Of a DNA stretch of 64,000 nt, positions 3,524 to 39,363 are shown piece after piece. The notes under the pieces are model-generated. The model saw only the letters and a list, made by a program, of their open reading frames with translations, did not search any database and had not been told where the DNA came from. Numbering within the stretch: position 1 is the first letter of the stretch; every line of letters begins with the position of its first letter. A program made the translations under genes and the position numbers. The DNA is from Ignavibacteriota bacterium (GTDB taxonomy: Bacteria > Bacteroidota > Ignavibacteria > Tepidaquicellales > Tepidaquicellaceae), in NCBI GenBank assembly GCA_026390735.1, contig JAPLFJ010000029.1, forward strand, positions 62,001-126,000, given 5' to 3'.

Positions 3524-5013
3524 TGTTAGCCCAGAAATTAGCTTTAAGTTATTCGAGTAAGATTGCTGTTCAGGCTGTGCAAATGATTGCAATGTTTATC
3601 GTTGCAAGAATTGTAGGTCCTACAGTTCTTGGAACTCTTGCATTTGGCTTAGCATTCGTTTCGATGTTTCTCTTCATTGCTGATTTAGGTTTAGGTTCTG
3701 CACATATAAAGCTGATTTCCGAAGGGCAGGACGAAAGCAAATGCATAGGTACGTTTGCAGTTCTGAAATCTGGAATGATAATGGTGTTCTCTCTAACCGT
3801 TCTTGGATATTATGTTGTGCAGAAATATGTTTTACAGATACCGTTTGAAAGCAAGGAGCACGAATACGTTATACTGATTTATTTATTGATTACAACAATC
3901 GGTCAGTTCTTTTCTATAGCAAGTTCTACATTTGCAGCAAAGACAGAACAGGCAAAACAGGATATTCCAAACTTTATACAGATTACACTGTATCAGATTC
4001 TTCGGATTATTTTTGCCGTCTTGGGTGCAACTGCAATCGGTCTTGCGTTTTCAAATTTAGCGGCAGTAGTACTTGTGATTCCTTTGTACTTATATTTATT
4101 CAAAGATTATAAAGTAGGGAAGTTTGATAAAGAATTAGCGATGAAGTATTTTAAAATCTCGCTTCCGCTTCTGGTGATTACAATCGTACAAACAATTATA
4201 TATTCAACTGACAGAGTTATACTTCAATACCTGACAAATTCAGAAGAGGTCGGTTATTATTCTGCAGGTTTTTCGATAGGTCAGTTCATCAGACTTATAG
4301 AGGCTTCGGTTGGTTTGCTTTTCTTCCCGATGTTCTCGGCATTGATTGCAAAAGGAGAGTTTGGAACTATCAACAGCAGAATAAATAAGTATGAAAGGTT
4401 TAATTTAATATTTATTCTTCCGTTGGTTGCTGCAATTTCTATCTGTTCGGATTTAGTTGTGAAGTTAGCACTTGGACATAAATATCTGGAGACTATTCCT
4501 GTACTTGGTTTCATAAATATATCGATGTACGTTTCAGTTGTGACATTACCATATATGAATTTGATTTCCGGCAAGGGATTGTTCAAACAGTCCGCTTACA
4601 TATATTTATTCTCGCTGATTATTTATGCAGGTTTTGCTTTTGTACTTGTCTCGCCGAATGTTTTTAACCTTAAGGGTGTAGGCATTGCTGGCTCGCTGAT
4701 TGCTGTAAACTTATTCCTTGGGATTCTGTTTGCAATCTATTCAAAACGGAAAATGCCTGACGTGCATTTGTTTCAAAGCAAATTGATAATGATTTATGGA
4801 ATTGTCGTCAGCGTTTTATTTCTGGTTGTATATCTTTATATGGATACCCTGCTTTCCCACATACTGACGGCAGTGGGTTATTTACTTGTGTACTTTGGAA
4901 TAGGATTTCTTGCTAAGATGTTTAAGATAGAAGATGTGCGAATGGTGCTTGAATTATTGAACTCAAAAAAACTATTAGGTTATATAAACTCTGAAATGAA
5001 AAATAGGAAATAA
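3523..5013 (+). CDS. wzx: Wzx-type oligosaccharide flippase (MOP superfamily)
   Basis: This 496-residue polytopic membrane protein has about 12-14 hydrophobic segments. Its N-terminus (SSKIAVQAVQMIAMFIVARIVGP, then LGTLAFGLAFVSMFLFIADLGLGSAHIK) is typical of the polysaccharide_synt family. A cytoplasmic loop with TDRVILQYLTNSEEVGYYSAG near residue 230 is the usual mid-protein hallmark. It would flip undecaprenyl-diphosphate-linked repeat units to the periplasm in a Wzx/Wzy-type pathway. It is coupled to genes on both sides by TAATG overlaps. No clear Wzy polymerase is found in the same operon. Flippase identity is secure by fold; substrate preference is unknown. Confidence 0.9.
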   Translation: MLAQKLALSYSSKIAVQAVQMIAMFIVARIVGPTVLGTLAFGLAFVSMFLFIADLGLGSAHIKLISEGQDESKCIGTFAVLKSGMIMVFSLTVLGYYVVQKYVLQIPFESKEHEYVILIYLLITTIGQFFSIASSTFAAKTEQAKQDIPNFIQITLYQILRIIFAVLGATAIGLAFSNLAAVVLVIPLYLYLFKDYKVGKFDKELAMKYFKISLPLLVITIVQTIIYSTDRVILQYLTNSEEVGYYSAGFSIGQFIRLIEASVGLLFFPMFSALIAKGEFGTINSRINKYERFNLIFILPLVAAISICSDLVVKLALGHKYLETIPVLGFINISMYVSVVTLPYMNLISGKGLFKQSAYIYLFSLIIYAGFAFVLVSPNVFNLKGVGIAGSLIAVNLFLGILFAIYSKRKMPDVHLFQSKLIMIYGIVVSVLFLVVYLYMDTLLSHILTAVGYLLVYFGIGFLAKMFKIEDVRMVLELLNSKKLLGYINSEMKNRK

Positions 5014-5993
5014 TGGAATTAAAAGATAAAAGAGTATTGGTTATCGGCGGTTCCGGTTTTATCGGAAGTTACGTAGTTGGTGAATTGCTTAAAGAAGATG
5101 TGAAGGAAGTGATCATATACGATAACTTCACGCGCGGTAAGATGTCGAACATAGAAGAGCATCTGAAAGATAAAAGGTGTTATGTAAATCCCACCGGCGG
5201 CGACGTACGTGACGTTGATATTCTAAATCAGGCAATGGAAGGTATTGACTACGTCATTCATCTTGCGGCGATGTGGCTTCTGCATTGCAAAGATTTTCCG
5301 GGAACGGCATTCGACGTGAACATAAAAGGCACTTACAATGTACTCGATGCCTGCGTGAAGAATAAAGTGAAGAAACTAATCTATTCTTCCTCGGCTTCAG
5401 TTTACGGAGATGCTGTTGAAATTCCTATGAAGGAAAGCCATCCTTTCAACAATAAAAATTTTTATGGTGCAACAAAGATTTCCGGCGAGGCGATGTGCAC
5501 CGCCATTAACGACCGTTACGGACTTGAAGTCATCGGTCTGCGGTATATGAATGTCTACGGACCGAATCAGGACCAGAACGCCGCATACACGGGAGTGATT
5601 CCAATTATGCTGAACAAGATTTCAAAGAACGAAACACCTGTGATTAACGGTGACGGAAGTCAGGCATACGATTTTATTTACGTAGAAGATGTTGCGCGTG
5701 CAAACGTTCAGGCGATAAAGACGGATGTTGCGTTTGGATTTTACAACGTTGGCTCTGAAGTGCAGACAACCATCAAAGAGTTGTGCGATTTAATTTTAAA
5801 GATGAAAAGTTCCAAACTTAGCGTTACATATAAACCATATTCCGAAGACGATGCAAGACAGTTTGTGAAAAACAGAATCGGCTCGAAAGAGAAAGCAGAG
5901 AACGAAATCGGATTCAGGTATAAATATTCACTCGAAGAAGGTTTGCAAAAATTAATAGACTGGCGAATCAGTACGGGAGTTGACGAAAAATGA
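5013..5993 (+). CDS. NAD-dependent sugar-nucleotide epimerase/dehydratase (GalE-like extended SDR)
   Basis: This 326-residue extended SDR has the Rossmann motif GGSGFIG at residues 12-18, HLAAMW near 83, SSSASVYG from 125 and the catalytic pair Tyr151/Lys155 (YGATK). The LRYMNVYGPNQD segment near 177 and the GDGSQAYDFIYVEDVARA segment near 222 are typical of UDP-glucose 4-epimerase-like enzymes. It overlaps the next gene, an aminotransferase, by four bases, so the pair probably epimerises or oxidises a UDP-sugar and then aminates it. The DNA from about 5.1 kb is visibly richer in G/C at third positions than the preceding genes. Exact reaction unknown. Confidence 0.85.
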   Translation: MELKDKRVLVIGGSGFIGSYVVGELLKEDVKEVIIYDNFTRGKMSNIEEHLKDKRCYVNPTGGDVRDVDILNQAMEGIDYVIHLAAMWLLHCKDFPGTAFDVNIKGTYNVLDACVKNKVKKLIYSSSASVYGDAVEIPMKESHPFNNKNFYGATKISGEAMCTAINDRYGLEVIGLRYMNVYGPNQDQNAAYTGVIPIMLNKISKNETPVINGDGSQAYDFIYVEDVARANVQAIKTDVAFGFYNVGSEVQTTIKELCDLILKMKSSKLSVTYKPYSEDDARQFVKNRIGSKEKAENEIGFRYKYSLEEGLQKLIDWRISTGVDEK

Positions 5994-14155: not shown

Positions 14156-15325
14156 ATGGCATATCAGGGCAGGGATTTAGTTAATAGCGAAAGAGTAATC
14201 TGCACGAAGTGCATTTATGATGATAGTATACCGGGCATTATATTCGATGAAAAAGGCGTTTGTAATTATTGCAAGATGGTTGATAGTTTTATGGATGAAT
14301 ATAAGACAGGTAAGCCGGAAGGTATTGCAGAGTTTGAAAAAATTGTAGAGAAGGTTAAGAAGGCAGGGAAGAATCAGAAGTATGATGTTGCAGTTGGAGT
14401 AAGTGGAGGTACAGATTCCTCCTATATGCTCTATCTTGCTAAACAATACGGGCTAAGTCCTCTTGCAGTGCATTATGATAACACGTGGAATTCTGCCACT
14501 GCGACCGAGAACATTAAGAAGGTTACAAAGGCTTTGAATGTTGACCTTTTCACATACGTCGTTGACAATAAGGAAATGGATGATGTATTCGGTTCGTTTT
14601 TCCGTGCAGGTGTGCCTGAGCTTGATGCTGCAACGGATTTGGCATTTCCTGAAATAATGTACAGAGCCTGCAGGAAGCATAAGATAAAATATTCATTCGA
14701 AGGGCATTCTTACGTTGAAGAAGGAGTATCTCCGATTGGTTATTTCTATTTCGATGGTGGTTATATAAGTGATATTCATGAACGTTTCGGAAAGATGAAG
14801 ATGAAAAGTTATCCGAATATGACTTTTATGAAATTTTTGTACTGGACAATATTTTTAAGGATAAAAAGAATCAGACCATTCTGGTATTTATCATATTCCA
14901 AGGAAGATGCAAAAGCATTTTTAATGAAAAATTACGGGTGGGAATACTATGGCGGTCATCATCTTGAGAACAGAATAACTGCATTTCATCATAGTTATTA
15001 TAATCCAATCAAATTCGGAATTGACCAGCGGAATAACAGCCTTGGTGCACTTGTCAGAAAAGGGGACTTAACAAGAGAAGAAGCATATAAGATATATTCT
15101 GAACCACCTTACTTAGAACCAGAACTGCTTGAGTATTTTCAAAAGAGACTGGATTTATCCGATGAAGAATTTGACAGGATAATGAAAGAGAAGCCAAGGA
15201 CGCACAAAGAGTTTAAGAACTATAAGAAATTGTTCAGATTATTCAGACCGCTGTTCTTTGTATTGTATAAGCTGAACATTGTTTACAAAAGTTTTTATGT
15301 GAAATATTGCGTTATTAAAAATTAG
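14156..15325 (+). CDS. wbpG: N-acetyl sugar amidotransferase (WbpG/PseA-type, acetamidino-forming)
   Basis: This 389-residue ATP-pyrophosphatase has an N-terminal zinc-knuckle-like cysteine set (Cys16, Cys19, Cys36, Cys39 in ICTKC and VCNYC), then the PP-loop SGGTDSS at residues 83-89 and LAVHYDNTWNS near 104. A long C-terminus contains YWTIFLRIKRIRPFWY. This is the family that replaces the acetamido oxygen of an N-acetyl sugar with ammonia to give an acetamidino group. HisH- and HisF-like genes follow within nine and three bases, the arrangement seen in Pseudomonas aeruginosa wbpG-hisH2-hisF2. Ammonia would come from that pair. Substrate sugar unknown. Confidence 0.9.
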   Translation: MAYQGRDLVNSERVICTKCIYDDSIPGIIFDEKGVCNYCKMVDSFMDEYKTGKPEGIAEFEKIVEKVKKAGKNQKYDVAVGVSGGTDSSYMLYLAKQYGLSPLAVHYDNTWNSATATENIKKVTKALNVDLFTYVVDNKEMDDVFGSFFRAGVPELDAATDLAFPEIMYRACRKHKIKYSFEGHSYVEEGVSPIGYFYFDGGYISDIHERFGKMKMKSYPNMTFMKFLYWTIFLRIKRIRPFWYLSYSKEDAKAFLMKNYGWEYYGGHHLENRITAFHHSYYNPIKFGIDQRNNSLGALVRKGDLTREEAYKIYSEPPYLEPELLEYFQKRLDLSDEEFDRIMKEKPRTHKEFKNYKKLFRLFRPLFFVLYKLNIVYKSFYVKYCVIKN

Positions 15326-15333
15326 AATGCAGG

Positions 15334-15942
15334 ATGATAGTAATCGTTAATTATGGTTTAGGTAATTTAGGCTCGATTCAAAATATGTTTAAGAAGATAG
15401 GAGTTGAAAGCACTATATCTTCCGAGCATAGTGTGATTATGGCAGCAGATAAATTGATATTACCGGGTGTCGGGAATTTTGGCAAAGGTATGCAGGAGCT
15501 GGAGAAATCAGGTTTAAAAGAAATATTAACGAAGAAAGCATTAGTTGAAAAAACACCGATACTTGGGATTTGCTTGGGAATGCAGTTGATGACGGACGAG
15601 AGCGAAGAATCGGAACTTAAAGGTCTTGGATGGATAAAAGCGAAAACACTGAAGTTCAATTTTGATAATGTGACAATGAAGGTTCCTCATATGGGCTGGA
15701 ATACAGTTGAAGTAAGCAATGAAAATAAGCTCATAGTGAAATCACCGGACGAGATTAGATATTACTTTGTTCATTCTTATTACGTGAGGGTCGCTGATGA
15801 AAGTAATTCAATTGCTAAGACTCAGTACGGTGTGTCTTTTGATTCTGCTTTCCATAAGGATAATATTTACGGTGTTCAGTTCCATCCCGAAAAAAGTCAT
15901 AAGTTCGGAATGAATTTATTAAGAAACTTTTCCACTTTATAG
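15334..15942 (+). CDS. hisH: HisH-like glutaminase subunit for sugar amidination
   Basis: This 202-residue class I glutamine amidotransferase has Gly-rich ILPGVGNFGKGM near 42, nucleophile Cys80 in GICLGMQL, and His184/Glu186 in GVQFHPEKSH, so the catalytic triad is complete. It matches imidazole glycerol phosphate synthase subunit HisH. The flanking WbpG-type amidotransferase and HisF-like gene, and the absence of other his genes, mean its job is supplying ammonia for acetamidino-sugar synthesis rather than histidine. The ATG at 15334 is nine bases after the previous stop, with an AGG just upstream. Confidence 0.9.
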   Translation: MIVIVNYGLGNLGSIQNMFKKIGVESTISSEHSVIMAADKLILPGVGNFGKGMQELEKSGLKEILTKKALVEKTPILGICLGMQLMTDESEESELKGLGWIKAKTLKFNFDNVTMKVPHMGWNTVEVSNENKLIVKSPDEIRYYFVHSYYVRVADESNSIAKTQYGVSFDSAFHKDNIYGVQFHPEKSHKFGMNLLRNFSTL

Positions 15943-15944
15943 AA

Positions 15945-16703
15945 TTGCTTAAAGTCAGAATAATACCGTGTTTACTTCTTAAAGATACAGGTTTAGTAAA
16001 GACGATAAGTTTTAGCAAGTTTAATTATGTCGGGGACCCTATAAATACATGCAGGATATTCAATGAACTTGAAGTGGATGAGTTAACTTTTCTTGATATT
16101 AGTGCTACGGTTGAAAATAAGGAGCCAAATTATAAAGTATTGCAGGAGATATCTGCTGAATGTTTTATGCCGGTTTCATATGGTGGTGGAATCAGGAATT
16201 TACAGCAGGTAGAAAAGATTTTAAGTATTGGGTTTGAAAAAGTAATAATTAATACTACGGCACTTGAAAACAGAAAGATAATAGCCGAGATTGCTGATAA
16301 CTTTGGAAGTCAGAGTTTAATTATATCTGTAGATTACAGGAAAAATATGTTTGGGAAATATCAGGTATTTGGAAATTCGGGAAATAAGAATTACAAAATG
16401 CATCCTGTTGAATGGGCTTCTGAAGTGATGAATCTAGGCGCAGGCGAAATATTGCTGACATCAATTGATAGAGAAGGCACGTGGAAAGGATTCGATGTTG
16501 AATTAACAAAGCTGGTAACCGACAAAGTGAAATTACCTGTAATAGCTAACGGAGGTGCAGGAAGTATTGACGATATCTCTGATGTGGTGAATATTGGAGG
16601 TGCATCTGCAGTAGCTTTGGGAAGTATGGTTGTTTATCAGGCAAAAGATATGGGAGTTTTAATCAATTTTCCGGACAGGGAATTAATATCAGGTAAATTA
16701 TGA
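15945..16703 (+). CDS. hisF: HisF-like subunit of the sugar amidination complex
   Basis: This 252-residue TIM barrel of the HisF family starts MLKVRIIPCLLLKD. In histidine-pathway HisF the segment reads CLDVKDG, with catalytic Asp11; here position 11 is leucine, while the second Asp (ISVDYRK, near 129) remains. FLDISATVENKE near 54 and VSYGGGIRN near 81 are conserved. Loss of Asp11 suggests that it no longer performs the cyclase reaction and only channels ammonia from HisH to the WbpG-type enzyme; similar HisF paralogues in O-antigen loci carry CLLL. The start is a TTG three bases after hisH; it overlaps the next gene by four bases. Confidence 0.9.
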   Translation: MLKVRIIPCLLLKDTGLVKTISFSKFNYVGDPINTCRIFNELEVDELTFLDISATVENKEPNYKVLQEISAECFMPVSYGGGIRNLQQVEKILSIGFEKVIINTTALENRKIIAEIADNFGSQSLIISVDYRKNMFGKYQVFGNSGNKNYKMHPVEWASEVMNLGAGEILLTSIDREGTWKGFDVELTKLVTDKVKLPVIANGGAGSIDDISDVVNIGGASAVALGSMVVYQAKDMGVLINFPDRELISGKL

Positions 16704-20510: not shown

Positions 20511-21818
20511 ATGAAAATAAGCGTATTTGGTCTTGGGTATGTCGGTTGTGTAAGTATTGGTTGTCTTGCAAAAATGGGGCATAAGATAATTGGTGTTGAT
20601 GTCAGCGAGACAAAAGTGAAGTTAATAAATACAGGAAAACCTACAATTGTTGAGAAAAGTATTGGCCAGCTAATTAAATCAGGATATGAATCTAAAAGAA
20701 TAAGTGCGACAACTGATTATAAAAAAGCAGTGAAAGAAAGTGATGTATCTTTTATATGTGTCGGCACTCCAAATTCTGTATCAGGACATTTGAACATGAA
20801 TTTTATCAAAAGTGTTTCTGAGGAAATTGCGGAAGGACTTAAAGGTAAAGAGAAATTCCATACAATTGTAATCAGAAGTACTGTTCTACCCGGAACAAAC
20901 AAAGAAGTATCTCAGATTATAGAAAAAATCAGTTCAAAGAAAAATTTAGTAGATTATTGCGTAGTATCCAATCCTGAATTTCTGAGAGAAGGAAATGCAG
21001 TTGATGATTACTTTAACCCAAGTATCACAGTAGTAGCTTCTGAATCTACTAAAGGTATTAAAGAGATAAAGAAAGTTTACAAAAAGATAAAAGCACCTGT
21101 TGCACAGGTAAGTGTTGGATTAGCTGAAATGCTAAAGTTTGTTAATAATACATTTCATGCACTGAAAATCTCTTTCGCCAATGAAATAGGGAATGTGTGC
21201 AAAAAGCTTGGCATAGATTCTGTTGAATTAATGACACTCTTTGCTCTGGATGATAAATTAAATATATCAAAAGCTTACCTGAGACCGGGTTTCGCTTATG
21301 GAGGTTCATGCTTGCCTAAAGATCTGAGAGCACTCAATACAATCGCTCATGACCATTATCTGGAAATACCAATTATAGGGAATATTGAAAGATCAAATTA
21401 TCTACAGAAGAAATATTTGTTTGATGAGCTGAATAACTCAGGTAAGAAAAAAATAGGTGTACTCGGCATTAGTTTTAAAGAGGGAACGGACGATTTGAGA
21501 GAAAGCCCTATTCTGGATGTGGTTGAAAGACTTATCGGAAAAGGTTATAAGGTCAATGTTTATGATGAAAATGTTAATATGTCAAACATCATAGGGGCAA
21601 ACAAGAATTTTATTATGAATAAATTACCCCATATATCAAGTTTATTGTACCTTGATATAAAGAAATTTATTGCTGATTCGGAAGTAATAATAATAAATGC
21701 GAATAATCCTAAACTTGTAAAGTTACTAAAGGCATCTAAGTCTGATAAAATAATTTATGATTTAGTATATTCGAATGAACTCAAAAAATTTAAAAACTAC
21801 AGAGGAATAAACTGGTAA
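20511..21818 (+). CDS. algD: GDP-mannose 6-dehydrogenase (AlgD-like)
   Basis: This 435-residue UDP-glucose/GDP-mannose dehydrogenase family protein has the NAD site GLGYVG at residues 7-12, SFICVGTP near 80, VIRSTVLPGT near 120 and NPEFLREG near 154. AEMLKFVNNTFHALKISFANEIGN near 205 carries the substrate-site Lys, catalytic Cys267 lies in YGGSCLPKD, and GISFKEGTDDLRESP follows near 318. The pattern, including the NTFHALKISFANE segment and the aromatic INW end, is closer to AlgD than to UDP-glucose dehydrogenases. The product would be GDP-mannuronate for the polymer, a likely substrate of the neighbouring amidotransferases. It overlaps the next gene by one base. Confidence 0.9.
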   Translation: MKISVFGLGYVGCVSIGCLAKMGHKIIGVDVSETKVKLINTGKPTIVEKSIGQLIKSGYESKRISATTDYKKAVKESDVSFICVGTPNSVSGHLNMNFIKSVSEEIAEGLKGKEKFHTIVIRSTVLPGTNKEVSQIIEKISSKKNLVDYCVVSNPEFLREGNAVDDYFNPSITVVASESTKGIKEIKKVYKKIKAPVAQVSVGLAEMLKFVNNTFHALKISFANEIGNVCKKLGIDSVELMTLFALDDKLNISKAYLRPGFAYGGSCLPKDLRALNTIAHDHYLEIPIIGNIERSNYLQKKYLFDELNNSGKKKIGVLGISFKEGTDDLRESPILDVVERLIGKGYKVNVYDENVNMSNIIGANKNFIMNKLPHISSLLYLDIKKFIADSEVIIINANNPKLVKLLKASKSDKIIYDLVYSNELKKFKNYRGINW

Positions 21819-23024: not shown

Positions 23025-24080
23025 ATTAAAATACTTTATGCTACTGACGGATTGGGTAATGGTGGCAAGGAAAGACAATTGGTAGAAGCTATCAGGAATT
23101 TGGATCTGAATATGTTTAGAATAGGTTTGATTACTTTTAATTTAAATCAGTATTATTCCGAGCTGGCGAAGCGAATTTCTGAATATTTCTCAGTGTTAAC
23201 AAAAGATAAAAGTGTCTTAGAGCCATTTGTCACTGTATTTGAAGCATTTGAACAATTCAAGCCGGATATTGTGCACTCTTATGACTTATTATCTTCAATG
23301 TATACTTATTTCCCTTCAAAGATGTATAATACAAAGATAATTAATGCGTCGATTCAGGATTCAGGTCTGGATAAAGGATGGCAATATAAAGTGAAAAAGA
23401 GACTATTATCTGTTTCTAATATTAATATAAGTAATTCAATGAAGGGGTTTTCTTATTACAAAACTCACGGAGAAGTATTGTATAATTTTATTGATAGCCA
23501 AAGGTTTAGTGAAGAGAAGAATAATATTGGCTTTAATGTTGCTATGGTCGCTAATTTTACTGAATATAAAGATTATCTGTCTTATTTCAGAGTTGTTAAT
23601 GAGTTAATAAAGTTAAATCTGATAGATAAAGCTTATGCAGTTGGCTCAGGTAAGTATCTGAGTAAATATCAAATGGAAATCGACGCTGATGAAAATCTAA
23701 AGGATAAGGTTATTTTTACGGGTAATACTGAAAACGTAGAGAAATTTCTTAGTAATGTATCAATTGGTTTTCTCTTTTCAACTGAGGAATATGGGGAAGG
23801 GATATCAAACTCTGTATTGGAGTACATGGCTTCCGGAGTTATTCCTGTAGTTTCTGATATCGGTGCGTCATCAGAAATTATTGATAATGGGGTTGATGGA
23901 TTTTTAGTAAACAAATATGATACTATGGCTATAGTTGAAATAGTCTCAAAATTAAGAAAAGACGAACGAATTCGTCATCAGATAATTGAAAATGCTAAGA
24001 AGAAAATATCAGATAGGTTTGAGCTGAAAAGAAATATTAAGCAATTACAGGATATTTATTCCAGAATTTGTAAAAATTGA
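23025..24080 (+). CDS. Family 4-type glycosyltransferase, probable ATT start
   Basis: The conserved GT4 first strand KILYATDGLGNGGKERQL is encoded from 23025 (ATT AAA ATA CTT ...). A TTG at 23052 would delete this strand and part of the glycine-rich loop, so it is a poor start. The only in-frame candidates after the upstream TAG are CTG 23013, ATT 23025 and ATA 23031. ATT just after the previous stop gives the family's usual M-K-I-L-Y head. The donor half contains NVAMVANFTEYKDY near 180 and the EEYGEGISNSVLEYMASGVIPVVSD segment with both glutamates. About 351 residues. A missed base is an alternative explanation for the odd start. Confidence 0.8.
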   Translation: MKILYATDGLGNGGKERQLVEAIRNLDLNMFRIGLITFNLNQYYSELAKRISEYFSVLTKDKSVLEPFVTVFEAFEQFKPDIVHSYDLLSSMYTYFPSKMYNTKIINASIQDSGLDKGWQYKVKKRLLSVSNINISNSMKGFSYYKTHGEVLYNFIDSQRFSEEKNNIGFNVAMVANFTEYKDYLSYFRVVNELIKLNLIDKAYAVGSGKYLSKYQMEIDADENLKDKVIFTGNTENVEKFLSNVSIGFLFSTEEYGEGISNSVLEYMASGVIPVVSDIGASSEIIDNGVDGFLVNKYDTMAIVEIVSKLRKDERIRHQIIENAKKKISDRFELKRNIKQLQDIYSRICKN

Positions 24081-25060
24081 AACACTTTTTAAATAAGATA
24101 AAGTTCGGACTTGGTTTAGATCCGAAAATAGAAAAGAGAGAGGATTACAAGCGCTATATTCCTGATGGCTATAAATCAGTTTTGATTTTATATGCTGACT
24201 TTGAACTTGCTTGGGCATGGAGATTCTCGAAAGGAATTGAAAATAGATTTGACTACAGCGAAAAATTGGGCAGAAAGGAAAGAGAAAACTTACCGGATAT
24301 ATTGAGCGTTTGTGAGTCTTATGGTATTCCAATTACCTGGGCAACTGTCGGACATTTATTTCTCAGCAACTGCGAAAGAAAAGGTGCAAAAGCACATCCA
24401 AATATATTGAGACCCGATTACTTCGATAATAAATTCTGGAAGTATAATGAAGGTGATTGGTTTGATGCTGATCCATGTTCTGGTCTAAAAGACAACAACA
24501 ACTGGTATTGCCCTGATTTAATCAATATGATATTAAACCAGAAAGTTAAACATGAGATTGGTTGTCATACATTCTCTCATCTTGATTGTACAGATGCCAA
24601 TTGTCCTCCTGAAGTATTCAATTCGGACATTACTGCATGCAAAGATGCAGCAAAAGGCTTTAATGTTAATCTGACATCATTCGTTCATCCTGCCCACACT
24701 ATCGGTAATCTTGATGGACTTATTGATAACGGATTTACTTCCTACAGAACAGACTACGATAATATACTCGGATATCCAAATTTATATAAGAATAAATTAT
24801 GGGAAATGAAAAGTACATGGGAATTTGTAAGCTTTGATGACTGGAGTATCAACTATCACATTAAAAGATATAGTGAAATTATTAAAAGAGCTAAACAAAA
24901 TAATTCTGTTTGCGTGTTGTGGTTTCACCCCTCAATAGATTTACGCTTCATTCATGATATTATGCCTTCAGTATTTAATGAACTTAATAATATGAGAGAC
25001 GAAGTGTTTGTTGCAACCGCTTCTGAATATGTTAATTTTCTGAATAAGAATGCAATTTAG
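24077..25060 (+). CDS. Polysaccharide deacetylase-family (NodB-like) protein
   Basis: This 327-residue protein has the NodB fold pattern: a first strand ending LYADFE with candidate base/metal Asp41, and metal-binding His164 and His168 in GCHTFSHLDC. LTSFVHPAHTIG near 208 resembles motif 3 and VLWFHPS near 300 corresponds to the final His motif. An insertion around 100-150 is rich in Cys/Trp/Asp (NCERKGAKAH, FDADPCSG, NNWYCPD). It has no signal peptide, so it would act on a cytoplasmic nucleotide- or lipid-linked sugar. It overlaps the ATP-grasp gene by eleven bases and starts a four-gene set with ligase-like enzymes. TTG start. Confidence 0.82.
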   Translation: MKHFLNKIKFGLGLDPKIEKREDYKRYIPDGYKSVLILYADFELAWAWRFSKGIENRFDYSEKLGRKERENLPDILSVCESYGIPITWATVGHLFLSNCERKGAKAHPNILRPDYFDNKFWKYNEGDWFDADPCSGLKDNNNWYCPDLINMILNQKVKHEIGCHTFSHLDCTDANCPPEVFNSDITACKDAAKGFNVNLTSFVHPAHTIGNLDGLIDNGFTSYRTDYDNILGYPNLYKNKLWEMKSTWEFVSFDDWSINYHIKRYSEIIKRAKQNNSVCVLWFHPSIDLRFIHDIMPSVFNELNNMRDEVFVATASEYVNFLNKNAI

Positions 25061-26225
25061 TCAAAACAATCCTGCATTTGTTTTTGGAATGTTTGAAACG
25101 GGTCTGGGGATAAGCAGAAGTTTAGGAAGAAATGGAATACAAGTTAATGGATTCGATTATAAAAAAGATATCGGGTCGTACTCCAGATATATCAAATTTT
25201 CTTTATGCCCAAATCCAATTAAAGACGAAGGCAGGTTTGTAGAATATGTAATTGATATTGCAAAATCATTTGAGCATAAACCTGTAATATTTATTGCGGC
25301 AGATGATTTTCTTGAAGTGTTTTCCCGGAACAGGCTTGTCCTGCAGAAATATCTCTTGATGAATTTACCCGAAGAAGAAACACTTAAATTAGCTTTTAAT
25401 AAGGGCCTGCTGTACGAGAAATGCGGGAACCTTGGAATCGATTGTCCAAAAACTTATACTGAATCGGCAAACTTCATATTCCCGTTAATTATAAAAGCAA
25501 AAAATGTAAATGCCTGGCGGAATAAGTTTAGCGGTAATGATAAGGTTATTATTGTAAATAACCATAATGAACTGGAAAAGCATCGCAAAATTCTGGATGA
25601 GTTAAACATTGGATATGTTTTACAGGAAATAGTACCAGGAAATGATGACAGGTTTTTTAAATATAATACATACATAGGAAAAGATGGTGAAATCCTTGCT
25701 GAATTTATGCTTCAAAAATTAAGGCAGAATCCTGTAAGGTATGGTGTTGGCTCGTTGGTGAAAAGCATTTATGACGAAGAGATAAGGGATATTGGCAGAA
25801 CAGTATTTGAACTGATTGAATATAAAGGCGTTGGTTCCGCAGAATTTAAGTATGATGAACGTGACAATAAGTATAAACTTATTGAAATTAATTCCCGTTA
25901 CTGGCAGCAAAATATTCTCCCAACTAAATGTGGGGTTAATTTCCCGTTGATTGAATATTTGTATCTTAGCAATTCAAGAAGCCTAATGTCTTACTCAAAC
26001 TACGATAAAGGTGTTAAATGGATCAATATGTATATGGACTTTACATCTTTTCTATATTATAGAAAAGAAGGCAAAATGGAATTAATGGACTGGGTTGATG
26101 ATATAAAAGGAGAAAAAGTGTTTTCCGATTTTGCAGGTGATGATTTGATTCCGGGGTTTTATGAGCTATTTCTATCTAATAAGCTAAAACGTCTTCCCAA
26201 ATATTTTAAAAAGAATATAAATTGA
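25050..26225 (+). CDS. ATP-grasp-family ligase
   Basis: This 391-residue protein starts with a preATP-grasp region (PAFVFGMFETGLGISRSLGRNGI), the carbamoyl-phosphate-synthase-like type often found in glycan loci. The ATP-grasp core follows with FPLIIKAKN near 144, YVLQEIVPGNDDRFFKYNTYI near 189 and a metal-site segment FKYDERDNKYKLIEINSRYWQQ near 267. The family joins a carboxylate (as acyl phosphate) to an amine or similar nucleophile. It lies between a deacetylase-like gene and a D-2-hydroxyacid dehydrogenase, which suggests coupling of a hydroxy or amino acid to a freed amino sugar. Substrates are unknown. Confidence 0.82.
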   Translation: MQFSQNNPAFVFGMFETGLGISRSLGRNGIQVNGFDYKKDIGSYSRYIKFSLCPNPIKDEGRFVEYVIDIAKSFEHKPVIFIAADDFLEVFSRNRLVLQKYLLMNLPEEETLKLAFNKGLLYEKCGNLGIDCPKTYTESANFIFPLIIKAKNVNAWRNKFSGNDKVIIVNNHNELEKHRKILDELNIGYVLQEIVPGNDDRFFKYNTYIGKDGEILAEFMLQKLRQNPVRYGVGSLVKSIYDEEIRDIGRTVFELIEYKGVGSAEFKYDERDNKYKLIEINSRYWQQNILPTKCGVNFPLIEYLYLSNSRSLMSYSNYDKGVKWINMYMDFTSFLYYRKEGKMELMDWVDDIKGEKVFSDFAGDDLIPGFYELFLSNKLKRLPKYFKKNIN

Positions 26226-27193
26226 GTAAATTACTCTATAAAATACGTTCCTGGATGATTAAAAGCCATTGGACAACAACTGATAAGATAAAAGTTCTTA
26301 TTGATACCAATAAATATTTTACTAAAGAAGCGTGGGGAGGAATATTAAATAAAACAATTAACTCTGCTAAAGTTGAAGTAATGTTTTATACGAATAAATA
26401 TGAAGGGTATAAATTAATTAAAGATGCACAAGTAATGTTTTCATTCGGAGATAATAATTATTACAACAAAAGTAAATTAGAACTGCAATACTATGGTATC
26501 TCACAGCCGGATAATTCGACTAATTCAGCCGCAAATGTATATTACGCAAAAGGAATCTCAAGTTCATCTGTCGCAGAATATTGTCTGGCTTATGCGTTAA
26601 TTGCATTAAATAATTTTGGTAAGTACTTCAGATATCAGCATCAGAATAAATGGCAACAGGAAATAAAATCTTCGGAAAGCTCAACGTTATCAGGCAAATC
26701 AATTGGAGTGTTGGGATTAGGCAACAATGGCAGGAAAATAGCAGAAATATTCAGAAAATTAGGCTGTCAGGTTTATGGTTATGATATAATGAATGATGCC
26801 GAAAAAGATGTTGATGTATTCTGCGGATGTATTGGTGAATTTCTTGAATCAAGTGATATTGTTATTTGTTCAGTTAACTTAACTCAAGATACCCAAAATC
26901 TTTTTAATAAGGATTCCTTCCTGAAGATGAAAGAGAATGCAATTCTGATTAATGTTTCTCGTGGAGGAGTAATTAACGAAAGCGATTTATACCTTGTTTT
27001 GAAAAATAAAGGAATAGCAGGTGCTGTTCTTGATGTAACAGTAAATGAACCATTATCAAGATATAGCAAGTTATGGAGTCTCGATAATTTGATTATTACT
27101 CCACATATTTCTGGTAATATTAATAAATATAGTTCAGAGGTAATGGAAGATTTTGCAGGAAAACTAAATCAATTTATCGATACTTATGTATGA
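26222..27193 (+). CDS. D-isomer-specific 2-hydroxyacid dehydrogenase
   Basis: This 323-residue NAD-dependent dehydrogenase has the Rossmann motif GVLGLGNNG ending at residue 170 and the complete Arg247/Glu276/His295 catalytic set (NVSRGGVINE, DVTVNEPL, TPHISGN). A SSSSVAEYCLAYALIALNN segment near 113 is typical of the family. Reaction: 2-keto acid to D-2-hydroxy acid or the reverse. It lies between an ATP-grasp ligase (4-base overlap) and a divergent asparagine-synthase-like protein (8-base overlap). Supplying a D-hydroxy acid as a glycan substituent is therefore a good inference, though not proven. TTG start. Confidence 0.87.
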   Translation: MSKLLYKIRSWMIKSHWTTTDKIKVLIDTNKYFTKEAWGGILNKTINSAKVEVMFYTNKYEGYKLIKDAQVMFSFGDNNYYNKSKLELQYYGISQPDNSTNSAANVYYAKGISSSSVAEYCLAYALIALNNFGKYFRYQHQNKWQQEIKSSESSTLSGKSIGVLGLGNNGRKIAEIFRKLGCQVYGYDIMNDAEKDVDVFCGCIGEFLESSDIVICSVNLTQDTQNLFNKDSFLKMKENAILINVSRGGVINESDLYLVLKNKGIAGAVLDVTVNEPLSRYSKLWSLDNLIITPHISGNINKYSSEVMEDFAGKLNQFIDTYV

Positions 27194-28964
27194 TTTTCTT
27201 CTGCAAATAAACTCAAAGTCATTTCATTCTCCTTATAAAGAAAATAATTATTTTGAGAGGAAAGATACTGAAAACATTGATGCAAATGATAGCTGGTTCA
27301 GACTTAATGGCTTAAGCAGCAAAAATAAGTATTACCACTCAGATTCAAATAATCTATTATGGATTTATGGGAATATATTTCTAAGGAATGGCTATGAAGA
27401 TATTTATTACAGGGAAATAACTGCGGATAATGTATTGACTGATTTGCTTAACCATCAGGATATTCATCATAAATATAAAGGCAATTACTGTATATTCAGG
27501 ATAGATAAGAAAACAAGGAGTATTCAAATTGTTAACAGTCAGTTAGGTATATGTCATGTTTATTACTACCATAATTCGGATATGTTAATTGTCAGTAATA
27601 ATCTTAACCATTTTAAGCATCTGAATCTGAAATATGATAATACTGCCATATACCAGAAAATGATGTTTACATATGAATTAGCTGATAATACATCATTTAT
27701 TGGTGTAAAAAGGGTAAATCCAGGAGAAATAATTAGCTTTGAAAATAGCAGTATCAAATGTTCGTTAGGGAGCACTGTAAAGAGTTTATTCGAAACCGAA
27801 GATTACGGAAAATTTGATGTTGAAAAGTATATATCTCTTTTCAATTCATCAGTTAGGGAAAGAGCCTTATGTGATGATAATGTTAATGTTTCATTCACTG
27901 GTGGATTTGATGGAAGGACAATTGTTTCGTCACTTTTAAATCAAGGGCTATCTGCCAATGCATATTCTTTTGGGAAATTTAACGGAGAAAATACCAGGGT
28001 TCCGTTGGCTATAAGTAAGGAAATTGGGGTTAATTATAACCCGGTTTACCTTGAAGAGGATTATGAAAAGAGTTATGTAAATGACGCCAGGAAAGTTATT
28101 TATTTCTCTGATGGTATGTCCTTCAATGAACGGGCAAATTATATTTATGCTTTCAGGAAATTAGCAGAAAAAAGCAGGTATGTGATTTCTGGGTTAATTG
28201 GTGGTGAAACATTAAGGCCGGTTCATTTGAGAACCGACTATCTTAATGAGAACTATTATCAATTGTTCTATATGAATAATCCAGATTTGATTGATAGTTA
28301 TTTCAAATGTAAACTTGTTAAGGAATCCATTAATTACCTGGACCATGATGCTGTAAGTGAATTAAAAGAAATAATTTATGAAAAGCAGAGTGAGATAAGT
28401 AATTTCCGGAACAAAGAAAATGGTTTTTTGTACTACCTGCACGATTTAATGCAGACCGGTTTCAGGATGTATTACGGAACTGAAATTCACTTTGAAAGAC
28501 AGTATTGTAATAATTTAACTCCTTTCTATGATATAGATCTGCTTCAGTATTTACTTTCCACAGACTATGTGGAAATATTCAAGCAGGCTTTTAAACCTGG
28601 AAAAATACACAGGTGGAGCGGGCAAAAAATTTATGCAAGGATTATAGAGAAGAACTTCGGGATATTAAATAAATATTCTGTTGACAGAGGTTATCCCCCT
28701 GGTTATTTGCTTAATCCAATGAAATTACTATTAATTCCATACTTGTATTATAAAAGAAAGAATAACAGAAAGCATTCCATAGATTTTGACGAAAATAAAT
28801 GGAGTAATCTATTCCTAGAAGATTTTATTGTTTCTGAATATAAGAATGAATTAGTGTTTAATCAGACTGCATTAAAGGAGAGAGCGGTGTCAAATCTTAA
28901 GACCGGAATACACTCTTCGGAATTTAACAGGATTCTATCACTTCAAACCTGGTTTAATCAATAG
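27186..28964 (+). CDS. Divergent asparagine-synthase-like protein without glutaminase cysteine
   Basis: This 592-residue protein has the two-domain outline of AsnB but an altered active site. It begins MYDFLLQIN, so nucleophile Cys2 is absent and the N-terminal domain cannot act as a normal glutaminase. The PP-loop is TGGFDGR (residues 238-244) in place of SGGLDSS; Asp242 is kept, the serines are lost. A TRVPLAISKEIG segment near 269 and IHRWSGQKIYARII near 494 match the synthetase domain. This resembles AsnB-derived ATP-dependent ligases such as beta-lactam synthetase in losing glutamine use. It may adenylate a carboxylate in the deacetylase/ATP-grasp/hydroxyacid module. Confidence 0.75.
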   Translation: MYDFLLQINSKSFHSPYKENNYFERKDTENIDANDSWFRLNGLSSKNKYYHSDSNNLLWIYGNIFLRNGYEDIYYREITADNVLTDLLNHQDIHHKYKGNYCIFRIDKKTRSIQIVNSQLGICHVYYYHNSDMLIVSNNLNHFKHLNLKYDNTAIYQKMMFTYELADNTSFIGVKRVNPGEIISFENSSIKCSLGSTVKSLFETEDYGKFDVEKYISLFNSSVRERALCDDNVNVSFTGGFDGRTIVSSLLNQGLSANAYSFGKFNGENTRVPLAISKEIGVNYNPVYLEEDYEKSYVNDARKVIYFSDGMSFNERANYIYAFRKLAEKSRYVISGLIGGETLRPVHLRTDYLNENYYQLFYMNNPDLIDSYFKCKLVKESINYLDHDAVSELKEIIYEKQSEISNFRNKENGFLYYLHDLMQTGFRMYYGTEIHFERQYCNNLTPFYDIDLLQYLLSTDYVEIFKQAFKPGKIHRWSGQKIYARIIEKNFGILNKYSVDRGYPPGYLLNPMKLLLIPYLYYKRKNNRKHSIDFDENKWSNLFLEDFIVSEYKNELVFNQTALKERAVSNLKTGIHSSEFNRILSLQTWFNQ

Positions 28965-28965
28965 A

Positions 28966-29964
28966 TTGAATAGAGTACTTATTGTTGCAAATATAAGAAA
29001 GAGCCAAGGGGGCATCACAACTCAGGTAATGGAATTAAAGAATTCTTTACTTTTGGAAGGGTTGGATGTTGAAGTTGTATCTACTCATGGAATTTTAAAA
29101 GATAGAATTCAGGGGGCTTATACTGCATTTAAAAGAGCAAAAGAGTGTGATATAATTCTTGGTGTCGGATGTGCTTATATGGGCTTTATCCCAATGTTTG
29201 TAGCTTATTTTATATCTAATATAAGAAATAAACCGGTTGTATTTAATTTTCATGATGGCCAGATAAAAGAATTCCTGAGTAGTTATTCCGGATTAGTGAA
29301 AATCGTTTTAAAGAATAATAATATCATAGTCGCAACAAAATACCTGCATGATGTATTTCATAGATTCGGCTTTAATCCAATTCTGATTCAGAATCATTTT
29401 AATAATCTGGAGACAACTAAAACAGAGTTAAAGAGATCAGAGACAATAAAGATTATGTGGGCCCGTAGTTTTGAAAAACTATACAGAGTAGATTTGGCAT
29501 TAGATGCTGCAATTCATTTTTCCTTGAAAAATAATGTTGAATTCCATTTTTATGGTGGTGGCTCAGAGTACAATTATTACTACGAAAAGTATAAAAACGC
29601 AAATATATTTTTCCATGGATTTATGAAAAGAGAGGATTTGCTTGAGGAATACAAAAAATATGATCTTTTTCTGAATACAACTGATTATGATAATTTCCCT
29701 ATGAGTATTGTTGAAGCAGGTTTAAATAATATGATAGTTGTCTCATCAAAGGTAGGAGGACTAGAGACCCTGTATGGCGAAGTGGAAATAGTTTTCTTCC
29801 AACCAGGCAGTATTGAAAGTTTAATAGAAACCTTGAGCGCTTTACTATCCGATATTACAAAATACAATACATACTCAGTTAATCTGGCGAAGAAAGTTGT
29901 GTCTTTTAATTGGGCAAACGTAAGAGATAAATGGATGAATTCATTAAATACTAAAACACAATGA
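28966..29964 (+). CDS. Family 4-type (GT-B) glycosyltransferase
   Basis: This 332-residue protein opens with RVLIVANIRKSQGGITTQVMEL, the GT4 nucleotide-sugar acceptor-domain start with its GG motif. The donor half has IKIMWARSFEKLYRVDLALDA near 163, HFYGGGSEYNYY near 191 and LFLNTTDYDNFPMSIVEAGLNN near 234, the retaining-GT Glu region. It is slightly shorter than typical GT4 proteins (350-400) but complete. The start is a TTG one base after the previous stop; the end overlaps the nucleotidyltransferase by four bases. Sugar unknown. Confidence 0.83.
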   Translation: MNRVLIVANIRKSQGGITTQVMELKNSLLLEGLDVEVVSTHGILKDRIQGAYTAFKRAKECDIILGVGCAYMGFIPMFVAYFISNIRNKPVVFNFHDGQIKEFLSSYSGLVKIVLKNNNIIVATKYLHDVFHRFGFNPILIQNHFNNLETTKTELKRSETIKIMWARSFEKLYRVDLALDAAIHFSLKNNVEFHFYGGGSEYNYYYEKYKNANIFFHGFMKREDLLEEYKKYDLFLNTTDYDNFPMSIVEAGLNNMIVVSSKVGGLETLYGEVEIVFFQPGSIESLIETLSALLSDITKYNTYSVNLAKKVVSFNWANVRDKWMNSLNTKTQ

Positions 29965-36542: not shown

Positions 36543-38362
36543 TGTGCGGCATTTGCGGAATATATAGTTTTAATGATTCATTACCGGATGCCAATAAGGT
36601 ACAGTCAATGATGTCAGTGATGAAGCATCGTGGGCCGGATAATGAAGCTATCTGGAATGATGATAAAGCTTGTGTAGGCTTTGTCAGACTCAGCGTTATC
36701 GATTTAAGTCCAGAGGCTAACCAGCCAATGGCTGATGATACAGGCAGGTATGTAATAACATTCAACGGAGAAATTTACAATTACATTGAATTAAAGGAAG
36801 AATTAATATTAAAAGGACATAGTTTCAAAACAAAGACTGATTCTGAAGTACTTTTGAAAGGGTATATTGAATGGGGGGCAGATGTTTTAAATAAATCTAA
36901 TGGAATGTTTGCGTTCGTCATTTATGATACAAATGAAAAGAAATTATTTGCCGCTCGTGACAGATATGGAGTTAAACCTTTTTATTACCACTTTGACAAT
37001 AATCGATTTATTTTTTCCTCAGAAATTAATCCTATCGTAACTATCTTTCCTGAGTTAAATGGTGTTAACGACGAAAGTGTATATAATTATCTGGTATTTA
37101 ACAGAACTGACTATAATGATGATACTTTCTATTCAGGAATTAAGAGATTACCACATGGCTCTTACATGGTAGTTGATAAAAATGTGAATATTTTAAAATG
37201 GTATAACCTTAAAGACAGGATTATAAACATTACTTCTGATTATCATATAACTGAACTCCTTGAATCTTCAATTAAGTTAAGATTAAGAAGTGATGTCCCA
37301 ATAGGATTGTGTCTTAGCGGTGGCCTGGATTCATCTGCAATTGCTTCAATTCTTATTAATAAATTTAATAATACGGGAATCAGCACCTTCTCAGCCGTAT
37401 ACCCTAATTACATCAATGATGAAAGTAATTATATCAATGAATACAGTAATGTTTTAAAGAATATGTTTTATGTTACGCCAGATGCTCAAAGTCTGTTTGC
37501 AGATAAAGAGAATTTTGTAAAGGCCCAGGGTGAACCACTTCCGTCAACTTCTCCATATGCACAATACAAAGTGATGCAGCTGGCTTCCGGGAAAGTGAAG
37601 GTTACTCTGGACGGTCAGGGGGCCGATGAAGAATTAGCGGGATATCATTACTTCTTTGGCAATTACTACAAAGAACTATTTGGCAGGTTTAAATACTTAA
37701 AATTGCTTAAAGAACTTCTGTATTATTTTAGAAATCACAAATCTCTTTACGGCTTTAAAACTTTTATTTTCTTTCTCTTGTCATCGGAGCGGCAAACCCA
37801 GCTTCGTGTTAACAAATACGGCTATCTGAGTGAGCATCTGAATAATACTTACAGTAAGAATAATTTTATTACATCAAATTTATACTCATCTACTGATCTG
37901 AATGAAGCGCTATATAATCATTTCGAATATAAACTTGAACATTTGCTCAAGTGGGAAGATAGGAACTCTATGAATTTCTCGATTGAAGCAAGATTACCAT
38001 TTCTGGATTTCAGACTGGTGGAATATGTACTTGGTTTACCTTCTGATCAGAAAATCAGCAACGGACAGACGAAATATATCCTAAGGGAAGAAATGAAAGG
38101 CATATTACCTGAGAATATAAGAAAAAGGCAGAGTAAGGTTGGCTTTGATACACCTGAAGACGAATGGTTCAGAGAGCCATATTTTAAGGAATATATATCA
38201 GATATTATTTCTTCTTCTGAATTTAAAAACTTAAATTATTTTAACATTGAGCAAGTTAGGAGGCTGTATAAAAAGCATCTTAATAATGAGATTAATGCTT
38301 CAAAAGAAATATGGAAATGGATAAATATGTATATCTGGATGAATAACAATCAATTGCGCTGA
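36542..38362 (+). CDS. Glutamine-dependent asparagine synthase-type amidotransferase (third copy)
   Basis: This 606-residue protein has MCGICGIY with nucleophile Cys2, KHRGPDNEA near 29, FNGEIYNYIELKE near 75, the PP-loop SGGLDSSA near 259 and DGQGADEELAGYHYF near 358. QTKYILREEMKG and RQSKVGFDTPEDEWF in the last third are typical of AsnB proteins. It is intact by all motifs. One base separates coupling with genes on both sides (TAATG and TGATG). Like the copies at 12253 and 17996 it probably amidates a uronic acid or acyl carboxylate; three copies suggest three different carboxyl groups or glycosyl contexts. Confidence 0.9.
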   Translation: MCGICGIYSFNDSLPDANKVQSMMSVMKHRGPDNEAIWNDDKACVGFVRLSVIDLSPEANQPMADDTGRYVITFNGEIYNYIELKEELILKGHSFKTKTDSEVLLKGYIEWGADVLNKSNGMFAFVIYDTNEKKLFAARDRYGVKPFYYHFDNNRFIFSSEINPIVTIFPELNGVNDESVYNYLVFNRTDYNDDTFYSGIKRLPHGSYMVVDKNVNILKWYNLKDRIINITSDYHITELLESSIKLRLRSDVPIGLCLSGGLDSSAIASILINKFNNTGISTFSAVYPNYINDESNYINEYSNVLKNMFYVTPDAQSLFADKENFVKAQGEPLPSTSPYAQYKVMQLASGKVKVTLDGQGADEELAGYHYFFGNYYKELFGRFKYLKLLKELLYYFRNHKSLYGFKTFIFFLLSSERQTQLRVNKYGYLSEHLNNTYSKNNFITSNLYSSTDLNEALYNHFEYKLEHLLKWEDRNSMNFSIEARLPFLDFRLVEYVLGLPSDQKISNGQTKYILREEMKGILPENIRKRQSKVGFDTPEDEWFREPYFKEYISDIISSSEFKNLNYFNIEQVRRLYKKHLNNEINASKEIWKWINMYIWMNNNQLR

Positions 38363-39363
38363 TGGAAATAAAATTATTGGAAAGTAAGTCAGATATATAT
38401 AATATTTATTCAGGTATATCGGGACTTCCTGATTTTAATGTATTTCAATCGAGCTTTTATTATGATGTACTTGCATATACAAACAAAACTAATCCTTCAG
38501 TTCTCATAGCAATGGAGCATGGAGTGCTTAAAGGATTTATTTTAATTCAGGTTCAGAATTATTTCAGCCGCTTACTTAAGTCATTTGCAACCAGAGCAGT
38601 TATCTCAGGGGGGCCTCTTTTTAATGATGACGAAAATGTCCTTTCAGAAATGCTTGAAAAGTATAATACAATATTTAATAGTAAGTTAGTGTACACTCAA
38701 ATCAGGAATATTCATAACGTGGATAAATACTATCATGTCTTTGAAAAACACAATTTCAAAAGAAATGACCACCTTAATTATATTATTGACTTAAATGCAG
38801 GTATTGATAAAATCTGGGAAAATGTTTATTCAAAAAGAAAAAACGAAATCCGCAAAGGTATCAAGGAAGATATAATAGTAAAAGAGATAGCCTACAATTC
38901 CGAACTTCGTTCAGCTTATGAAATTCTTGAAGGGATTTATAGAAAAGCAAAACTTCCTTTACCTAAATATAATTATTTCGAGAATGCATTAAAAGTACAG
39001 GGTACGGAGAATGTTTTGAGAATAATGGGTGGCTATTTTGACTCAACATTAGTTGGAATCATGTTTTTGCTTTGTTTTGAGGGTAGGGTATATAACTGGT
39101 ATGCTGCTGCAAAACCTGATTATTACAGGAAATATCCGAATGATGTAATTACCTGGGAAGTAGTTAAGTGGGCATCTGAAAATGGTTTTAATATATTTGA
39201 TTTTGGTGGTGCGGGAAATCCTGCTAAAGATTATGGAGTGAGGGATTTTAAGAAAAAATTTGGCGGGTTGGAAGTTAACTACGGCAGGTATGAATGTATT
39301 CATAAACCTACCGTTATGAAACTTTCTGAATATGGGTTTAAATTATGGCAAAAACTTAACTGA
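38362..39363 (+). CDS. FemAB/GNAT-fold protein
   Basis: This 333-residue protein matches the FemAB-like GNAT family. A KSFATRAVISGGPLFND segment lies near 74, IWENVYSKRKNEIRKGIKE near 151 is the conserved arginine/lysine-rich helix, and DSTLVGIMFLLCFEGRVYNWYAAAKPDYYRKYPNDVITWEVVKWA near 223 is the second GNAT core. FDFGGAGNPAKDYGVRDFKKKFGG near 286 is diagnostic of these proteins. FemAB proteins transfer amino acids from aminoacyl-tRNA to cell-wall precursors. In exopolysaccharide loci related proteins occur with unproven roles; here aminoacylation of an amino sugar is a hypothesis. Confidence 0.82.
   Translation: MEIKLLESKSDIYNIYSGISGLPDFNVFQSSFYYDVLAYTNKTNPSVLIAMEHGVLKGFILIQVQNYFSRLLKSFATRAVISGGPLFNDDENVLSEMLEKYNTIFNSKLVYTQIRNIHNVDKYYHVFEKHNFKRNDHLNYIIDLNAGIDKIWENVYSKRKNEIRKGIKEDIIVKEIAYNSELRSAYEILEGIYRKAKLPLPKYNYFENALKVQGTENVLRIMGGYFDSTLVGIMFLLCFEGRVYNWYAAAKPDYYRKYPNDVITWEVVKWASENGFNIFDFGGAGNPAKDYGVRDFKKKFGGLEVNYGRYECIHKPTVMKLSEYGFKLWQKLN

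Follow-up and report, generated by a model that had tools for sequence, protein, structure and literature searches.

A conserved ATP-grasp and AsnB-like ligase pair in an exchangeable cassette behind a polysaccharide deacetylase, possibly acting in glycan N-acyl exchange

Analysis of a 64,000-nucleotide stretch of an Ignavibacteriota genome (contig JAPLFJ010000029.1, positions 62,001 to 126,000; hereafter the window) pointed to a ligase pair, consisting of an ATP-grasp protein and an AsnB-like protein without the N-terminal cysteine, as the conserved core of a gene set that recurs across several phyla. We give a probability of about one half to the reading that this cassette and the polysaccharide deacetylase in front of it form a glycan N-acyl-exchange system, for which we infer the acyl group, the order of the steps and the acceptor. 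The relevant features of the window are:

20511-21818: nucleotide-sugar dehydrogenase of the glycan locus
23052-24080, + strand: glycosyltransferase (GT4-like; Glycos_transf_1), directly 5' of the deacetylase
24077-25060, + strand: polysaccharide deacetylase (NodB fold), 327 aa, resident in the locus
25050-26225, + strand: ATP-grasp carboxylate-amine ligase-like protein, 391 aa, core cassette gene
26222-27193, + strand: D-2-hydroxyacid dehydrogenase, 323 aa, variable cassette slot
27186-28964, + strand: AsnB-like ligase without Cys2, loop TGGFDGR, 592 aa, core cassette gene
28966-29964, + strand: glycosyltransferase, directly 3' of the AsnB-like gene, bounding the exchangeable cassette on the right

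The four ORFs between 24077 and 28964, all on the + strand, overlap successively by 11, 4 and 8 nt and are translationally coupled. The 5' glycosyltransferase overlaps the deacetylase ORF by 4 nt and the 3' glycosyltransferase begins 1 nt past the AsnB-like stop codon. The set, flanked by glycosyltransferases on either side, lies in a large glycan locus which also includes the nucleotide-sugar dehydrogenase, a Wzx-like flippase, Wzi-like and FemAB-like proteins, acetamidino-sugar genes and three ordinary AsnB amidotransferases with Cys2. The region 14156-16703, which encodes a PP-loop protein and an AglZ/HisF2-type protein (above the NCBIfam cutoff) that are separated by a 202-aa ORF, looks like an acetamidino-sugar gene set; the FemAB-like protein at 38362-39363 (cluster of 32 loci) recurs in glycan loci carrying the AsnB-like protein. 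The nearest relative genome, G004, belongs to the same genus as the window genome, and a search of plasmids found no relative.

The product of 24077-25060 matched PF01522 with 26.7 bits, above the family cutoff. Its motif-1 acids (D41 and E43, in the form DFE, not TFDD), the HxxxH pair H164/H168 and the C-terminal H284 are invariant among 14 homologues, and the protein has, as judged by these acids, the HxxxH metal site and the C-terminal histidine, the predicted make-up of a NodB-type polysaccharide deacetylase. The homologue in L109 matched the NodB model weakly (E 1e-4).

Family HMMs recognized the product of 25050-26225 weakly (CPSase_L_D2 under cutoff; PRK12767-like, E 5e-12). Its AlphaFold model (pLDDT 90) matched 2pn1 with a Z score of 27.9 and PurK, PylC and L-amino-acid ligase with scores of 24-25, and the Mg/ATP residues E279-x-N281, R283, K165 and R225 are conserved (E279 in 21/21 sequences, N281 in 20/21). 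The model thus places the protein in the ATP-grasp fold with a Mg-binding E-x-N motif; its amide ligase activity is predicted. The product of 26222-27193 carries the NAD-binding domain 2-Hacid_dh_C (PF02826, E 3e-49) and the catalytic set R247, E276 and H295, as expected of a putative D-2-hydroxyacid dehydrogenase, the N-terminal part being divergent and without a Pfam match. In the L103 homologue (4143-5156) a serine replaces the catalytic arginine.

For the AsnB-like protein all Pfam matches were under cutoff. A PDB sequence search with the single protein as query gave no match, and matches were found when a profile of the family was used. The structural model (pLDDT 89.8) matched TsnB9 with a Z score of 24.0, AsnB with 22.6 and the beta-lactam and carbapenam synthetases with about 21, over 415-492 residues; the predicted fold is that of the asparagine synthetase/beta-lactam synthetase superfamily, with an Ntn-like and a PP-loop synthetase domain. 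Both marks of glutamine-dependent AsnB are missing: residue 2 is a tyrosine, with cysteine at this position in 0/44 homologues, and the PP-loop reads TGGFDGR, the ordinary SGGxDSS being absent.

These results bear out what the first-pass annotation had read from the sequence alone, namely overlapping or nearly touching genes (the overlaps measuring 4-11 nt), intact deacetylase metal-site histidines, an ATP-grasp core, a complete Arg/Glu/His set in the dehydrogenase, and an AsnB-like protein that has lost Cys2 and has a TGGFDGR loop.

When about 85,000 species genomes were scanned, the AsnB-like protein was located in 49 loci, the majority from Ignavibacteriota and Bacteroidota and a few others from WOR-3 and Cloacimonetes. 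Among 44 aligned sequences, most of which had been picked by the loop motif itself, the loop follows T-G-G-[FMN]-D-[GS]-R, with the T, GG, D and R invariant in 44/44; T238, G239, G240, D242, R244 and R476 are invariant, and 41/44 have Lys or Arg at position 501, which aligns with the KxGF lysine in ordinary AsnB. Five relatives recovered without the motif have the loops TGGNDSR, TGGMDSR, TGGFDCR, TGGMDTR and TGGGDTR, so that TGGxDxR is a trait of the family. Comparison with the nearest relative (66% identity) gave a dN/dS of about 0.11 (an approximate value, dS being saturated), and purifying selection also acts on the other cassette genes. The view of the protein as an inactive relic with unconstrained sequence, which the earlier annotation had named as fatal to its proposal, is disfavoured by this selection and by the invariant loop residues. 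The altered loop, DGR in place of DSS, could nevertheless mean weakened catalysis. In the same genus, a relative directly behind a deacetylase in L082 (3791-5008, the contig ending inside the gene) has the loop SGGFKGR, with lysine for the loop aspartate.

Partners were counted within six genes of the AsnB-like gene in the 36 loci with enough flanking DNA, which span Ignavibacteriota, Bacteroidota, WOR-3 and Cloacimonetes. An ATP-grasp gene was present in 34/36, none being detected in the available flanks of the two exceptions (L108 and L142); a polysaccharide deacetylase was present in 25/36, with none detected near the AsnB-like gene in the other 11, and an SDR or hydroxyacid dehydrogenase in 8/36. 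In 30 loci centred on ordinary AsnB genes of relatives, taken as controls, the same ATP-grasp, deacetylase and hydroxyacid dehydrogenase families were found in 0/30, and glycosyltransferases of the same kind in 13/30. Fisher's test gave p 9e-17 against all controls and 4e-10 against the glycosyltransferase-bearing ones, values to be read with the facts that the loci are not fully independent, some being closely related, and that the partner HMMs were derived from the AsnB-like loci themselves. An ATP-grasp neighbour also stands beside all five relatives recovered without the motif (5/5). Two ATP-grasp clades (PRK12767-like and RimK/LysX-like) and two deacetylase clades (the window type and a PgaB-like type) pair with the AsnB-like protein, and these functions have therefore become associated more than once.

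The order glycosyltransferase, deacetylase, ligase cassette, glycosyltransferase recurs across genomes, and the upstream GT4-like type is the usual neighbour in most of the loci. Since the four-gene order itself recurs in other genomes it is not due to chance, and a chance neighbourhood is rejected by the control loci together with this recurrence. The neighbourhood counts thus identify the putative ATP-grasp/AsnB-like ligase pair as the conserved core across several phyla.

The order deacetylase, ATP-grasp, dehydrogenase, AsnB-like was found in the window, in L081 of the same genus and in L102 and L103 of Bacteroidota; in L110 (Melioribacter) the three cassette genes stand in this order and the deacetylase lies three genes downstream. 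The D-2-hydroxyacid dehydrogenase is the slot gene in five loci; in the others the slot holds an SDR or a GNAT-like protein, or has no clear occupant. An SDR occupies the dehydrogenase position in L149 and the slot in L104, whose short contig holds no deacetylase; in L125, L127 and L134 a GNAT-like protein sits between deacetylase and ATP-grasp genes. The dehydrogenase thus does not belong to the core and fills a variable slot. An alanine dehydrogenase/transhydrogenase-like gene, right after the AsnB-like gene in L147 (9570-10508) and L148 (9113-10045), is a candidate for a further slot enzyme. A fixed four-gene operon is rejected, since variation in the dehydrogenase and in the deacetylase does not follow the two ligases.

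The search of genomes for co-occurrence of these families, proposed by the first-pass annotation, thus upheld the pairing of the two ATP-dependent ligases (34/36 loci against 0/30 controls) and the deacetylase as a frequent partner (25/36, two clades). Its four-gene module stands in part: the genes are a set and the ligases a conserved pair, but the dehydrogenase is not core and the deacetylase belongs to the locus.

In the deacetylase tree the window protein groups with those of L086, L091 and L082 of the same genus (support 100/99), and L086 and L091 carry no cassette: there, the counterpart of the glycosyltransferase at 28966 follows the deacetylase after 20 and 3 nt, respectively. In the AsnB-like tree, the window and L081 group with L102 and L103 of Bacteroidota (100/100), far from the other proteins of the same genus. 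In L089 and L107 the same position behind the deacetylase holds MBOAT, SGNH-like, SDR, ATP-grasp and AsnB-like genes. The empty sites in the same genus and the conflicting trees show 25050-28964 to be an exchangeable unit, a three-gene cassette swapped behind a resident deacetylase that is itself a locus gene outside the cassette.

Sets with a membrane-anchored SGNH-like protein of 315 aa, SDR, ATP-grasp and AsnB-like proteins occur in L083, L085, L087 and L089, preceded by an MBOAT gene in L083, L085 (DltB-like) and L089 and followed by a YbaK-type Cys-tRNA(Pro) deacylase in L083 and L087. These sets lie partly outside glycan loci. Since those of L083, L085 and L087 stand near MBOAT or SGNH-like genes and partly in non-glycan surroundings, a deacetylated sugar is not necessarily the acceptor, which may differ between loci.

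For the window we infer the following chemistry, including which acid is used, which of the two ligases acts first and that the deacetylated sugar is the acceptor. The resident cytoplasmic deacetylase would N-deacetylate an amino sugar on which the adjoining glycosyltransferases act, and the dehydrogenase would convert a 2-oxo acid to a 2-hydroxy acid. The ATP-grasp enzyme would activate a carboxylate as acyl phosphate and join it to an amine, probably that of an amino acid; the AsnB-like protein would adenylate the resulting acid and transfer it to the freed sugar amine. Since the protein cannot obtain ammonia from glutamine, its nucleophile should be an amine of another kind. Beta-lactam and carbapenam synthetases lack the glutaminase cysteine yet are active, with such an amine as nucleophile. 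In a fungal pathway an acid is first coupled to an amino acid by an ATP-grasp enzyme, and an adenylating ligase then attaches the product to an amine (PMC12568646); bacterial glycans are known to contain amino sugars bearing N-acetylalanyl, hydroxybutyryl and malyl groups (PMC3210612).

It seems improbable that the AsnB-like protein lacks a catalytic role, serving as a scaffold or to bind substrate, and that the ATP-grasp enzyme makes the bond alone. The missing glutaminase cysteine, the replaced PP-loop serines and the lysine in the loop of the L082 homologue would suit such a role; the invariant T238, G239, G240, D242, R244 and R476, the Lys/Arg at 501, the complete fold, the low dN/dS (with dS saturated) and the activity of beta-lactam and carbapenam synthetases without this cysteine speak against it. 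Uronic-acid amidation, in which the cassette would activate the carboxylate of a sugar acid produced by the nucleotide-sugar dehydrogenase (20511-21818) and couple it to an amine or an amino acid, with the deacetylase as a mere neighbour, would fit a locus with that dehydrogenase and three ordinary AsnB amidotransferases, and amino-acid amides of uronic acids do occur in bacterial glycans (PMC3210612). We consider it unlikely: it does not predict deacetylases of two clades beside the AsnB-like protein, and ordinary Cys2 AsnB proteins are already there for simple uronamides.

Finally, a D-hydroxy acid might be linked through its hydroxyl as an ester, by VanH/VanA-like depsipeptide or O-acyl chemistry, and the product exported and passed on to a wall polymer or glycan. 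VanH models are among the many that the dehydrogenase matches, D-Ala-D-lactate ligases belong to the ATP-grasp ligases and sister cassettes adjoin MBOAT and SGNH-like proteins. This chemistry leaves the deacetylase without a role, the dehydrogenase is missing from most cassettes and no MBOAT gene adjoins the cassette of the window, all of which makes it very improbable.

Odd N-acyl groups, such as hydroxy acids and N-acylated amino acids, are common in bacterial glycans. If N-acyl exchange by deacetylase and cassette is true, the cassette is a genomic signature for unusual N-acyl groups, and it includes an amide ligase type that requires neither glutamine nor a carrier protein. Related bacteria would then alter their surface chemistry by swapping three genes. 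More tentatively, and in our judgement less likely than not, the AsnB-like proteins may be a widespread class of glutamine-independent amide ligases (loop TGGxDxR) which, with the ATP-grasp enzymes, attach tailor-made acyl groups to deacetylated amino sugars; the slot enzyme (hydroxyacid dehydrogenase, SDR or GNAT-like protein) would set the acyl group, and a swap of cassettes would alter the surface glycan.

The first-pass annotation knew of no described system with exactly this order, and the open-access papers searched gave no description of the pairing of an ATP-grasp protein with a Cys-less TGGxDxR AsnB-like protein or of the full set. The N-acetylglutaminylglutamine amide (NAGGN) pathway consists of an AsnO-type amidotransferase and a GNAT/ATP-grasp dipeptide synthetase. 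It shares AsnB-like and ATP-grasp ligases with the cassette, and a GNAT-like protein with L125, L127 and L134; unlike the cassette, it has no deacetylase, its AsnO uses glutamine (Cys2), and its product is a free osmolyte, not part of a glycan. Against TIGR03104, the NAGGN amidotransferase model, the AsnB-like protein scored 22.4 bits, below the cutoff of 570.1. In Nod-factor synthesis the NodB-fold deacetylase frees an amine and a second enzyme, NodA, re-acylates it, as proposed here; NodA draws on acyl carrier protein, whereas here two ATP-dependent ligases would substitute. Beta-lactam synthetase, carbapenam synthetase (CarA) and TsnB9 share the fold of the AsnB-like protein (Z 21-24), and the first two also lack the glutaminase cysteine; CarA and TsnB9 retain the SGGxDS loop, and all three act on small molecules, unlike the acceptor proposed here. 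In the E-64 pathway, too, an ATP-grasp enzyme links acid and amino acid before an adenylating ligase brings in an amine (PMC12568646), but this ligase belongs to the ANL family, is not AsnB-like and makes a fungal small molecule. Each enzyme fold is already known; what the open-access papers searched do not describe is the conserved pairing of the ATP-grasp and AsnB-like proteins, commonly behind a deacetylase, with an exchangeable slot.
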